In this document: positions 304-9,231 of the stretch, one piece after another
How positions within the stretch are numbered: position 1 is the stretch's first letter
Layout of the letters: each line of letters starts with the position of its first letter
Source: Arthrobacter mangrovi
GTDB taxonomy: Bacteria > Actinomycetota > Actinomycetes > Actinomycetales > Micrococcaceae
DNA length: 64,000 nt
Direction: 5' to 3'
Assembly: GCF_026011795.1 (NCBI RefSeq)
Contig: NZ_BRVS01000015.1
Coordinates: 1 to 64,000, forward strand
Made by a program: the position numbers and the translations under genes
Notes under the pieces: model-generated
What the model saw: only the letters and a program-made list of their open reading frames with translations
Told to the model about the DNA's origin: nothing
The model's database searches: none

Positions 304-1041
304 TTAGCGCGAGTTTGTTGATGGCTGGATAGATTTGTTCTGCCGGGCAGCGTCGACCAAGGCTTTGAAGATGGCTTGCTGCCTTGGATCTTCGCTGGCC
401 AGCACTTCGGGGTGCCATTGCACTGCCAGGACCTGCCGCGCCTGATCTTCGATGGCTTCAATGCAGCCGTCGGCCGCGCGTGCTGTGACCATCAGGCCTT
501 CGCCGAGGCGGTCAACGGCCTGATGGTGGGCGGAGGCGGTGGGAGCTGTGGTGCCCAGCAGTGCGGCAAGCCGGGATCCAGGTAGGAGGTCGACCGGGTG
601 ACGGGCGAAGGCGCCAGCAGGGTCCGCCGTGTGCCGATGCCGGTGATCGATATCCGACGGCGGCAGGTCCTGGATGAGGGTGCCGCCGTAAAGCACATTG
701 ATCAGCTGCATTCCGCGGCAGATGCCGAAGATGGGCAGGTCCTTCTCGAGGGCATGCTTGGCGGCGGCGAAGTCGAGATCGTCCTGCGCCGGATTGGTGT
801 CGTAGACGCGGGGATCCGGTTCCTGACCGTAGCAGCGGGGGTGCAGGTCTCCGCCCCCGGGGAGCAGCAGCCCGTCGATGTCCGGTCCCGCGGCCCAGGT
901 TTCCGGGGTGAGCGGCACTGGGATGCCGCCTGCGGCGCTTACGCGGTCAGTAATGAGCCCGATAAGGCGATTGGCTACTGCCACACGGTTGTCCAGCGCC
1001 GGATCACTGAGGCGTACGGGGATACCGATTCTGGTTGACAT
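304..1041 (-). CDS. gamma-glutamyl-gamma-aminobutyrate hydrolase family protein (peptidase C26, PuuD-like)
   Basis: A 245-residue class I glutamine-amidotransferase-fold hydrolase. The nucleophile motif GICRGMQ is in the middle, and the His-Glu pair appears in AVQWHPE near the C-terminus, so the Cys-His-Glu triad looks complete. PuuD relatives cleave the gamma-glutamyl amide bond of gamma-glutamyl-amines. The ATG at 1041 is chosen because AAAGGAG sits just upstream and the family N-terminus (IGIPVR) follows at once. It is the last gene of the minus-strand Rieske operon, about 115 bp below the intradiol dioxygenase. Inference: it may release glutamate from a gamma-glutamylated intermediate made by the glutamine-synthetase-like protein at 3746-5239. 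The exact substrate is unknown. Confidence 0.88.
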   Translation of the reverse strand: MSTRIGIPVRLSDPALDNRVAVANRLIGLITDRVSAAGGIPVPLTPETWAAGPDIDGLLLPGGGDLHPRCYGQEPDPRVYDTNPAQDDLDFAAAKHALEKDLPIFGICRGMQLINVLYGGTLIQDLPPSDIDHRHRHTADPAGAFARHPVDLLPGSRLAALLGTTAPTASAHHQAVDRLGEGLMVTARAADGCIEAIEDQARQVLAVQWHPEVLASEDPRQQAIFKALVDAARQNKSIQPSTNSR

Positions 1042-1156
1042 TCTGATCTCCTTTGATCGTGCACTAGGCCCACACCGCGCCGGGCAGTACCTGGGCATGC
1101 CGCGCCGCCCCCTGCGGTGGGCTGAGAGGGCGGCGCGGCGGTCGGATTGTGGCGTG

Positions 1157-2017
1157 TTAAGGCTGTTCCGGATCGAGGACGAAGTTGTAGGTGACTTCGT
1201 TCCCGCTTCCATCGGCCTTGGGGTGTGGGGCGAGGACCAGTTCGGGTTTGACCGCGGTAGCGATGTCGTCTTCCAGGTGGCTGTCGCCCTGGAAGTAGAG
1301 CTGGGCGGTGAGCAGTTCGTGGCCGGGTGCGGAGACCTTCAGGTGCAGGTGGGCCGGGCGCCATGCGTGCCAGCCGGCGGCCTCGATCAGCTTGCCGCAG
1401 GACCCGTCAGTGGGGATCTGGTACGGCGCGGGCTGGATGGTGTTGACGGCGAAGGTCCCGTCCGCGTCGGCGATGATGGTTCCGCGCAGGTTCCATTCCG
1501 GCAGGCCGGGAGCGAACTGCGAGTAGAAGCCGTGGTCATCGGCATGCCATAGTTCGATGTTGGCGCCGGCCAGCGGTCGGCCGTCGACGTCCCTGACCTG
1601 TCCTGCGAAGAGCAGGGGAGTGCCGGGCTCGTCGGCGCGCATGGGCAGGCTGCACGTGGCGGGCAGTTGCGGGGCGCCGGCAACGTAGTACGGTCCTTCG
1701 ATGGATCCTTTGGACCCTTCGCGGTGGTCGGTGGCTACTTCCTCGACGACGTGTTCGACCCAGACGTCCATGAAGAGGGGCCATTCGCCGTCCAGACCGA
1801 CCTGAATCAGCCAGCCTTTGACAGCCTGGTATTCGTCATAGGTGACCCGGTGCCGGCGGATCACGTCGTGGACCGCCGTCAGGACTTCGGTGGCCAGCTG
1901 GCTGACCCGTTCCTTGGGCGTGTCCAGGTTTGTCGCGTGGTTTTCAAAGTAGCGTTCGGTGGCGCGGCCGCCTGAGTCGGCTGCGGTAGCCTCGAATTCG
2001 GTGACTTCCTGCGACAT
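1157..2017 (-). CDS. intradiol ring-cleavage dioxygenase (catechol/hydroxyquinol 1,2-dioxygenase family)
   Basis: A 286-residue non-haem Fe(III) dioxygenase that cleaves catechols between the hydroxyl groups to give cis,cis-muconates. The N-terminal 100 residues form the helical dimerisation domain of catechol 1,2-dioxygenases. The four iron ligands are visible: Tyr111 in IEGPYY, Tyr165 in DHGFY, and His223 and His225 in RPAHLHLKV. The ATG at 2017 has AAAGGAG at good spacing. It lies in the Rieske operon 43 bp below the ferredoxin reductase, which fits cleavage of a diol made by the dioxygenase. The motifs do not separate catechol from hydroxyquinol or chlorocatechol specificity, so no symbol is given. 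Confidence 0.93.
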
Positions 2018-8237: not shown

Positions 8238-8439
8238 AGAAATGCCTCCTCAATGTGGGCCAGGACTCTGGCTCGGGGACGGTTGCACCGAGCGTAGGGT
8301 GCGCCGTTTCAGCCGGTCTACGGTCTTGTACCGCATTTCGCTGAGGAGAATAACTAAAAGGTATGTTTTTCCTATGAAAATGCCGTCCGGAAATATGAAT
8401 CTTTCGGGCGCCGGATACCGCTGCCTCCCACGCAGATCC
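8238..8439. promoter_or_regulatory. upstream region of the Rieske operon
   Basis: About 200 bp between the IclR gene and the alpha subunit, both on the minus strand. It is clearly more A/T-rich around 8341-8410 than its surroundings, as expected of a promoter region for the long minus-strand operon. I see only weak inverted repeats here (for example GCACC...GGTGC at about 8285) and do not assign a specific operator. Confidence 0.4.
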
Positions 8440-9231
8440 CTATGAGGCGTGGGCAGCAGCCCCCCGGGCAGGCTTGCCTAGATCCGCTTCGGCCGTGGCG
8501 ACGGCATCGCGCAGAGCCTCGACGTAATCCGGGATCTTCTTGCGGTTGAACCGAATGCTGGGAATGGCTACGGAAATGCCTGCGACCGCGCGACCCCCAG
8601 GGTCCTTCACACAGGCAGCGATACCCGCAATTCCCTGGGCGGCCTCTTCGAGGTTGAGTGCGTAGCCGTTCTGCCGCACGGTCACCAGGTGCCGCTTGAG
8701 CGACTGCAGGGAGGTGATCCGGGACGAGCGCCACGGCGGGAGCCCGCCGGCATGGATGGACTCAAGCTCGGCGTTGCTAAGCGTGGCCAGCAATGCCTTG
8801 CCGCCCGCAGAACAGTAGGCGGGCACAAGGTCCCACATGGCCGTGCGCACACTCAGGGACTGAGTGCTCTCGATCCCGTCGATGTACCTGACCCTCGGCC
8901 CCTGCAGGACCCAGACCTGGATGGTCTCGTCGAGGGTCTTATTGAGGGTCTCAATGGAGGGCCAGATGGCCCCGCGGAGCTGGTTGGGCGGGTAGGACAT
9001 TTCCTCGTGGGGGGCCAGCTCCGGCCCGGCCCGGTACCGGCGCTCCCTGTCCTGGACTGCGAAGCCGTCGTAGCAGAGGGCGGCCAGCAGACGGTGTGCG
9101 GTCGAGGGGACAACGTCGAGCATTGCGGAGGCATCTTTGACGCTGAGGACCTGACCGTCGCGCAGGGCCACGAGCAGCCGCAACGCGCGATGCACGGAAT
9201 CGAGCGGAGGCACCTGTTCAATATTTCGCAT
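8440..9231 (-). CDS. IclR-family transcriptional regulator
   Basis: A 263-residue regulator with an N-terminal winged helix-turn-helix (residues about 10-70, including the segment PSTAHRLLAAL as recognition helix) and a C-terminal effector-binding IclR domain ending in CVKDPGGRAVAGISVAIP. IclR proteins usually control adjacent aromatic-catabolism operons in response to a pathway compound. It lies upstream of the Rieske operon on the same strand and is divergent from the M24-Hyu operon that starts at 9453. It could therefore control either or both. AGGAGG lies 16 nt upstream of the ATG, with a closer AAGGA. Confidence 0.93.
   Translation of the reverse strand: MRNIEQVPPLDSVHRALRLLVALRDGQVLSVKDASAMLDVVPSTAHRLLAALCYDGFAVQDRERRYRAGPELAPHEEMSYPPNQLRGAIWPSIETLNKTLDETIQVWVLQGPRVRYIDGIESTQSLSVRTAMWDLVPAYCSAGGKALLATLSNAELESIHAGGLPPWRSSRITSLQSLKRHLVTVRQNGYALNLEEAAQGIAGIAACVKDPGGRAVAGISVAIPSIRFNRKKIPDYVEALRDAVATAEADLGKPARGAAAHAS

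Follow-up and report, generated by a model that had tools for sequence, protein, structure and literature searches.

A predicted aromatic-amine degradation locus in Arthrobacter mangrovi with a small conserved protein beside the Rieske oxygenase and linked hydantoinase-type modules

The DNA analysed (the window) is a stretch of 64,000 nucleotides at the start of contig C15 (NZ_BRVS01000015.1) of the 4.43-Mb Arthrobacter mangrovi assembly GCF_026011795.1. The contig looks chromosomal because purL/purQ-like, dnaX-like and tRNA-Ser genes lie farther along it. A first-pass annotation had described minus-strand positions 304 to 9231 as an operon taking an aromatic amine to a ring-opened muconate, and had listed a separate adrenodoxin-type ferredoxin, a second gamma-glutamyl hydrolase (C26) and an unassigned coiled-coil protein as its differences from known aniline dioxygenases. 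Family searches with Pfam and NCBIfam recovered every gene type named, and the operon was borne out with all its parts. The unassigned protein is called protein X below, and loci compared with the window carry L-numbers. In order of transcription on the minus strand, the genes are as follows.

8440..9231, minus strand: IclR-family regulator, adjacent and divergent to the M24 gene (PF01614, PF09339)
6912..8237, minus strand: Rieske oxygenase alpha subunit (PF00355, PF00848; tree)
6319..6915, minus strand: Rieske oxygenase beta subunit (PF00866)
6015..6305, minus strand: protein X, 96 amino acids, N-terminal helix and small conserved C-terminal cap (36-member family; AlphaFold2 (AF2) model)
5299..6018, minus strand: class I glutamine amidotransferase (GAT)-like hydrolase, AtdA2/TdnT type by position (PF00117)
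3746..5239, minus strand: predicted glutamine-synthetase-like gamma-glutamyl-arylamine ligase (PF00120; PDB 8wwu, 588 bits; tree; F75, F86, W236)
3332..3652, minus strand: adrenodoxin/putidaredoxin-type [2Fe-2S] ferredoxin (PF00111; best NCBIfam model fdx_isc, 49 bits, under cut-off)
2061..3323, minus strand: GR-type ferredoxin reductase (PF07992, PF14759)
1157..2017, minus strand: catechol 1,2-dioxygenase CatA (TIGR02438, 489.9 bits, cut-off 404.4)
304..1041, minus strand: C26 gamma-glutamyl hydrolase-like amidohydrolase (PF07722, 177 bits; start shifted inward from 1212)

The starts given for the C26, reductase, amidotransferase and beta genes are likely ones, taken from reading the sequence. 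ATGA overlaps join alpha to beta and X to the amidotransferase gene.

Compared with the sequences of the PDB, the window ligase scored 588 bits to 8wwu and 156 bits to the next best entry; the code 8WWU is given in the naphthylamine paper (PMC11335346). In a ligase tree of 95 rows, from which L002 (match too short) and L119 (duplicate of L052) were left out, the window ligase fell inside a 49-row clade (Shimodaira-Hasegawa-like approximate likelihood ratio test [SH-aLRT] 99) with NpaA1 of the JS3066 plasmid (L009) and the ligase of a Delftia plasmid (L008), to which it is 53% and 58% identical, respectively. It stood apart from a 34-row clade of oxygenase-less ligases and from two glutamine synthetases of its own genome. 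The reference members of this tree are NpaA1 and the Delftia ligase, AtdA1 and TdnQ themselves being absent; NpaA1 and AtdA1 are 90% identical (PMC11335346).

The window ligase carries F75, F86, W236 and E235, equivalent to F75, F86, W235 and E234 of NpaA1 (aromatic bottleneck plus acidic residue), the roles of the tunnel and bottleneck residues being taken from PMC11335346. F75, F86 and W236 were each retained in 29/29 actinobacterial loci that contain X. Their retention was 17, 18 and 18 in the 18 alpha/beta loci without X, 7, 7 and 3 in the seven Bacillaceae X loci, and 35, 12 and 3 in the 39 ligase-only loci. F75 is not discriminating, since it is found in 29/29 actinobacterial X loci and also in 35/39 ligase-only loci. 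Among the 39 ligase-only loci, L044, L046 and L048 fall in the proteobacterial oxygenase clade on the tree; their contigs are short or run out there, and the oxygenase has possibly been cut off. The best NCBIfam model for the window ligase was gamma-glutamylputrescine synthetase at 245.7 bits, against a cut-off of 650. By tree position and residues, the ligase is assigned to the aniline/naphthylamine group, as kin of NpaA1, and not to the organism's own or the polyamine-type glutamine synthetases. At the base of the clade, L051 (10001-13250, a Pseudonocardiaceae metagenome-assembled genome) has a ligase with an amidotransferase and no Rieske alpha/beta match in the stretch examined.

The alpha subunit scored far below the curated cut-offs of both BenA (242.7 bits, cut-off 780.95) and AntA (213.2 bits, cut-off 671.9). 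Ligase tree, tunnel residues and these alpha scores are the parts of the first-pass annotation's refuting condition that sequence can address, and its aromatic-amine reading came through them. Five other alpha-like matches occur in the same genome, all at ≤37% identity; one of them, a second Rieske alpha on contig C25 (L121, 37% identical), adjoins a CatA-like gene (437 bits) and has a benzoate-type look. The CatA of the window exceeds the curated cut-off of TIGR02438, the model for actinobacterial catechol 1,2-dioxygenase, and CatB (56%) is encoded elsewhere in the genome with CatC beside it. A catechol 2,3-dioxygenase, unrelated to CatA, is above its own cut-off (421.9 against 320.2 bits) in the Bacillaceae X locus L117. 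Since the core genes occur with these two unrelated enzymes for catechol cleavage, catechol is the probable common product. The ligase tree, the tunnel residues and the CatA score agree with the amine-to-muconate route annotated earlier, and at the sequence level a path from aromatic amine through gamma-glutamyl anilide and catechol to muconate is well supported.

Further genes were noted in two Bacillaceae X loci. L117 (9795-18107) encodes a luciferase-like monooxygenase (SfnG and RutA models below cut-off) and a [2Fe-2S] ferredoxin along with the catechol 2,3-dioxygenase, and apparent meta-cleavage genes, judged by eye, lie downstream. L114 (4659-8425 and 13227-14090) encodes an intradiol dioxygenase together with 3-oxoacid CoA transferase, thiolase-like and iron-containing alcohol dehydrogenase genes. 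A hydroxyquinol pathway was considered for L114 and was not supported, as the intradiol enzyme is below all cut-offs and the alcohol dehydrogenase is unspecific.

NpaA2 is dispensable for conversion and has been described as likely undoing glutamylation in the manner of AtdA2 (PMC11335346). The C26 hydrolase is present as annotated and proved to be a minor trait: of the 28 actinobacterial X loci besides the window, only L005 (266 bits) and L010 (471 bits) gave strong matches, and C26 was rejected as the main novelty at 3/29 loci including the window. C26-class proteins (92-104 bits) occur in 5/7 Bacillaceae loci. The best NCBIfam model for the window protein was gamma-glutamyl-gamma-aminobutyrate hydrolase at 84.9 bits, against a cut-off of 266. 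In L007 (7995-9926, Rhodococcus gordoniae pDND3A), the amidotransferase gene is in two pieces with an IS3-family transposase gene between them, and a further amidotransferase is encoded downstream of the reductase gene.

Like the window, AtdA1-A5, TdnQTA1A2B and NpaA1-A5 of Proteobacteria combine a glutamine-synthetase-like ligase and a GAT-like hydrolase with a Rieske alpha/beta oxygenase. The proteobacterial five-gene type has a single reductase component (AtdA5/NpaA5; PMC11335346), whereas the window has a separate ferredoxin and a GR-type reductase; the Delftia cluster (L008) lists a ferredoxin--NADP reductase. In 17 proteobacterial loci neither X nor Hyu/M24 genes were found, both of which the window has. 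Rhodococcus sp. DH-2 converts aniline via catechol to muconate with seven listed genes (PMC11596033), and the gene types of the DH-2/AN-22 cluster (cadA1, cadA2, cadB1, cadB2, cadQ, cadT and catA) match those of the window by description only (PMC11596033). A separate [2Fe-2S] ferredoxin, a reductase and a catechol 1,2-dioxygenase are common to both, and the ferredoxin, which is present as first annotated, was rejected as a novelty because DH-2 already has one (PMC11596033). The available portion of the DH-2/AN-22 descriptions makes no mention of X, C26 or Hyu/M24 genes, as a comparison of texts only (PMC11596033). Three actinobacterial plasmids, Corynebacterium occultum pCOCCU, Dietzia kunjamensis pDK2035-69 and Rhodococcus gordoniae pDND3A, have the order alpha-beta-X-GAT-ligase-ferredoxin-reductase seen in the window and, unlike the window, no Hyu/M24 module in the stretches examined. 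X is a "hypothetical protein" on two of them and unlisted on the third, the PLSDB gene table being incomplete.

Of the differences listed by the first-pass annotation, the important one is protein X. Its family was found in 36 loci of Actinomycetota and Bacillaceae (the window, L005-L007, L010-L032, L050, L052, L104 and L113-L118; L024/L025 and L015/L016 are near-copies), and alpha, beta and ligase are present in all 36. X directly follows beta in 30 loci and the ligase in six; the actinobacterial loci have it after beta throughout (29/29), and the seven Bacillaceae loci have it after beta once and after the ligase six times. Surveys of larger collections mostly scored part of the first-look candidates, so that misses are possible. 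Among 72,556 plasmid records (E up to 1), X occurred in three, all aniline-type clusters, and the same three plasmids were returned with a Bacillaceae X as query. X was found in 2/395 genomes of the window's own family, where the second place shares contig and coordinates with the L010 genome, and in 1/396 genomes of a phylum sample, the own genome. The family of Pseudonocardia parietis had X in 12/346 genomes, 11 of them already known and the new one with the order alpha-beta-X-GAT-ligase-ferredoxin-reductase. The family of Rhodococcus aetherivorans had it in 1/301 (the R. aetherivorans genome itself), and that of Bacillus sp. V3B in 7/193, with alpha, beta and ligase adjacent in 7/7.

Whole-genome scans found X in 25/30 genomes, single-copy in all 25; those without it were L033, L051, L054, L055 and L063. 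By profile search, X was not found in the 17 proteobacterial alpha-beta-ligase loci or in the 39 ligase-only loci. It was found in 0/11 proteobacterial genomes with such oxygenase loci (nine scanned as controls, plus L054 and L063) and in 0/3 ligase-only genomes, with the same model that gave 25 positives elsewhere. Over L001-L089 the profile gave one further match, L082, which is insignificant (E 0.088). X thus tracks the Gram-positive oxygenase/ligase core, with one exception: L033 (7902-16400, an actinobacterial metagenome-assembled genome) combines alpha, beta and ligase with M24, HyuB and HyuA and has neither X nor an amidotransferase match.

A ribosome-site-like stretch, GGGGAGG, lies ahead of the ATG of X. 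Compared with Arthrobacter hankyongi, nonsynonymous divergence (dN) was 0.13 and synonymous divergence (dS) 0.56, by which X behaves as a coding sequence under purifying selection; 29/54 differences fall at third codon positions. Seven residues are invariant in 36/36 members (D50, Y54, W62, R67, P85, W86 and R93), all in the C-terminal cap and not in the helix. Neither Pfam nor NCBIfam matched the window protein at 0.001, and over 29 members Pfam returned scattered coiled-coil families only, the best being bZIP_2 at 1.6e-4 in one of six matching members. A PDB profile search returned coiled coils from E 0.0043. The AF2 model has a helix at 2-44, two short strands and a helix at 67-81 (predicted local distance difference test [pLDDT] 77, predicted template-modelling score [pTM] 0.51), and fold searches with it gave no match at E 0.001 or better.

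X is kept where other parts of the system change. L029 has a 7Fe-type ferredoxin (from its cysteine pattern) and another pyridine-nucleotide reductase; a C26 protein replaces the class I amidotransferase in 5/7 Bacillaceae loci; and L030, L117 and L118 have X without any amidotransferase in the stretch examined. A tie of X to the adrenodoxin-type ferredoxin was rejected, the window-type ferredoxin and reductase being present in 23/36 X loci and another chain in L029; L024, L025, L028, L031 and L032 have no full ferredoxin/reductase pair in the stretch examined. A tie to the class I amidotransferase was likewise rejected, since L030 and the seven Bacillaceae loci carry X without one. Because X stays with the oxygenase through changes of the electron-transfer chain and of the amidotransferase, it is read as oxygenase-associated, most likely a subunit or an assembly factor. 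Such a protein could bind alpha/beta through the conserved cap, as a dedicated accessory of the Gram-positive oxygenase form, and the long helix may serve as an oligomerisation or bridging element.

The main rival to X as a subunit is a bridge between ligase and oxygenase, that is, a scaffold for direct transfer of the gamma-glutamyl anilide; a coiled-coil regulator is the related alternative. The long N-terminal helix of the AF2 model, the weak matches confined to coiled-coil families (bZIP-like included) and the position of X directly after the ligase in 6/7 Bacillaceae loci are in keeping with such roles. The invariant residues, however, sit in the cap outside the helix, X follows beta in every actinobacterial locus, and regulators of other families are already present. 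On balance a scaffold or regulator is unlikely.

The linked genes go on past the operon along the plus strand, as far as about 16219 and probably 26293. The first-pass annotation had the 304-9231 operon right and ended too short, missing the M24-HyuB-HyuA and transporter modules just outside it.

9453..10634, plus strand: predicted M24/creatinase-fold hydrolase, altered metal-ligand positions (PF00557, PF01321; AF2 pLDDT 85; Foldseek)
10618..12375, plus strand: HyuB, hydantoinase B/oxoprolinase-family subunit (PF02538, 455 bits; CapB 354.5 bits, cut-off 1000; start shifted inward from 10471)
12400..14499, plus strand: HyuA, hydantoinase A/oxoprolinase-family subunit (PF01968, PF05378; CapA 678.9 bits, cut-off 1000; PDB 6yra, 486 bits)
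14588..16219, plus strand: NCS1-type permease (PF02133)
16325..20108, plus strand: ribose-type ATP-binding cassette (ABC) transporter, with binding protein, ATPase and permease (PF13407, PF00005, PF02653; probable second module)
20118..21002, plus strand: LysR-family regulator (PF00126, PF03466)
21247..26293, plus strand: second M24-HyuA-HyuB set (Pfam, NCBIfam)

HyuA or HyuB of the linked type was found in 18/36 X loci, in two phyla, and in L033; neither was found in the 39 ligase-only loci or the 17 proteobacterial alpha-beta-ligase loci. Hyu and M24 were counted in flanks of ≤10 kb, several contigs being shorter. The HyuA proteins of L015 and L016 were removed from the count (20 to 18), as they lie outside the linked group on the tree, and two loci off the HyuA tree, L113 and L117, entered the count through HyuB and a cut-off HyuA match. 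M24 occurs in 14/36 X loci. The genes from alpha through HyuA all point one way in L017 and L020, as a single run together with a short-chain dehydrogenase and a GAF-LuxR-type regulator (Pfam, L017 copy), and the order in L030 is M24-HyuB-HyuA-ligase-permease-alpha-beta-X-ferredoxin-reductase. The same three ABC-transporter types lie beside alpha in the Bacillaceae loci L052/L119 and L113. On the HyuA tree, 18 linked rows grouped at 96/98, apart from the only HyuA of the own genome outside the window; the second HyuA of the window grouped with three oxygenase-linked HyuAs of Bacillaceae at 96/94, with a long-branch warning. No clear operator was found in the aligned IclR-M24 intergenic gap.

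M24 metallopeptidases have five metal ligands, D, D, H, E and E. At the positions we take to be those of the ligands, 16/16 aligned sequences have the second Asp replaced by Glu, the first Glu by His and the last Glu by Ala or Ser, with the His retained. Foldseek with the M24 model matched dipeptidase, creatinase and EutD at E 1e-23 to 1e-21, and creatinase, EutD and prolidase were not separable by it. The HyuA/HyuB family (caprolactamase, N-methylhydantoinase, 5-oxoprolinase) comprises two-subunit ATP-dependent cyclic-amide hydrolases. HyuA and HyuB of the window are of the same family as CapA/CapB yet under both cut-offs and, unlike the caprolactamase family, they have an aromatic-amine oxygenase and an M24 protein as linked partners. 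A pesticide pathway offers a precedent that works alike in function: iprodione breakdown leads to the aromatic amine 3,5-dichloroaniline. In the iprodione pathway of Paenarthrobacter (ipaH, ddaH and duaH), DdaH opens the hydantoin ring (PMC9869045). Among the matches listed from open-licence PubMed Central text, with subscription papers outside the search, there was no paper describing X and none joining a hydantoinase with an aniline dioxygenase.

Taken together, the window is read as an aromatic-amine catabolic locus in which X is a dedicated accessory of the oxygenase and the Hyu/M24/transporter modules belong to the same pathway (probability about 0.6). The ligase would join glutamate to the aromatic amine, by homology with NpaA1/AtdA1, and the Rieske alpha/beta oxygenase, supplied with electrons via the [2Fe-2S] ferredoxin and the reductase, would hydroxylate the ring of the anilide, upon which the nitrogen side would leave and catechol form. 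CatA, by its family assignment, would open catechol to muconate, which CatB/CatC could take onward. The amidotransferase-like protein and the C26 hydrolase may clear surplus gamma-glutamyl amide, by analogy with AtdA2. Delivery of the amine is the most likely role of the upper genes: judging by conserved linkage and by the chemistry of the families, the transporter-M24-Hyu modules most likely take up a cyclic amide (a lactam, a hydantoin-like compound or similar), whose ATP-dependent opening would release the aromatic amine. Aniline oxidation that depends on glutamylation is known chiefly from strains that degrade pollutants. Conservation of the locus in two phyla, together with its dedicated small protein and the linked family of cyclic-amide hydrolases, suggests an older natural role, and X is a component possibly omitted by anyone rebuilding the Gram-positive system elsewhere.

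Several points weigh against this reading. The link between X and alpha/beta consists of gene order and co-occurrence, and most X loci were located via the ligase scan. X-bearing rows split into two separate clades on the ligase tree, and X was therefore lost elsewhere or gained by one lineage. The pTM of the X model is just 0.51, and the model has no PDB match. Mirror-tree correlation, over the 20 loci with a full set of seven genes (L007 and L025 excluded), was high for all genes; the highest value for X was with beta, 0.78 (partial 0.32), next to 0.77 for the reductase, so that the peak is a weak hint. The tunnel tryptophan is found in just 3/7 Bacillaceae ligases, so the amine of Bacillaceae may differ. 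CatA-like matches lie near in just 12/36 X loci, and two of these matches are weak. No linked HyuA/HyuB is present in the stretch examined for 18/36 X loci, and L033 has Hyu/M24 without X; X and the Hyu modules are thus not mutually obligatory.

A more far-reaching version, in which X is an obligatory third component of Gram-positive anilide oxygenases, HyuAB and the altered M24 form an upper pathway from natural cyclic amides, and the aniline dioxygenases of pollutant degraders descended by losing X and the upper module, is doubtful. In the opposite direction, the window could hold a plain aniline cluster like that of Rhodococcus AN-22/DH-2, with X as a dispensable passenger and the Hyu/M24/transporter genes in an unrelated pathway. 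DH-2 degrades aniline to catechol and muconate, and the parts of PMC11596033 covered leave X and Hyu unmentioned among its seven genes; the X loci without linked Hyu genes point the same way. The purifying selection on X, its 36 loci in two phyla and its seven invariant residues stand against a passenger, as do, for the Hyu genes, the recurrence of one group beside the oxygenase in two phyla and the shared run in L017, L020 and L030, and a plain cluster is considered rather improbable.

HyuAB and M24 could also come into play once the oxygenase has acted, to recycle a by-product derived from glutamate (either 5-oxoproline or some gamma-glutamyl compound), given that the HyuA/HyuB family includes 5-oxoprolinases and that PDB 6yra is titled 5-oxoprolinase. 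The importers of both modules (NCS1 and ABC) and the presence of two sets in one genome would then be unexplained, and the proteobacterial loci (n = 17) do without Hyu/M24 genes, which makes recycling distinctly improbable. Degradation of an aliphatic amine or polyamine, with CatA an accidental neighbour, is highly improbable: the best NCBIfam models of the ligase and of C26 lean toward it with both scores below cut-off, and it is opposed by the ligase tree and tunnel residues, by the ring-hydroxylating alpha/beta oxygenase and by the two unrelated families of catechol-cleaving enzymes in different loci.

Farther along the window, at 40955-47695, two FAD_binding_2 dehydrogenase-like genes, with short-chain dehydrogenase/reductase and major facilitator superfamily genes, follow a gene with an IclR domain; this is read as another catabolic cluster, possibly, as a guess, a steroid-like one.

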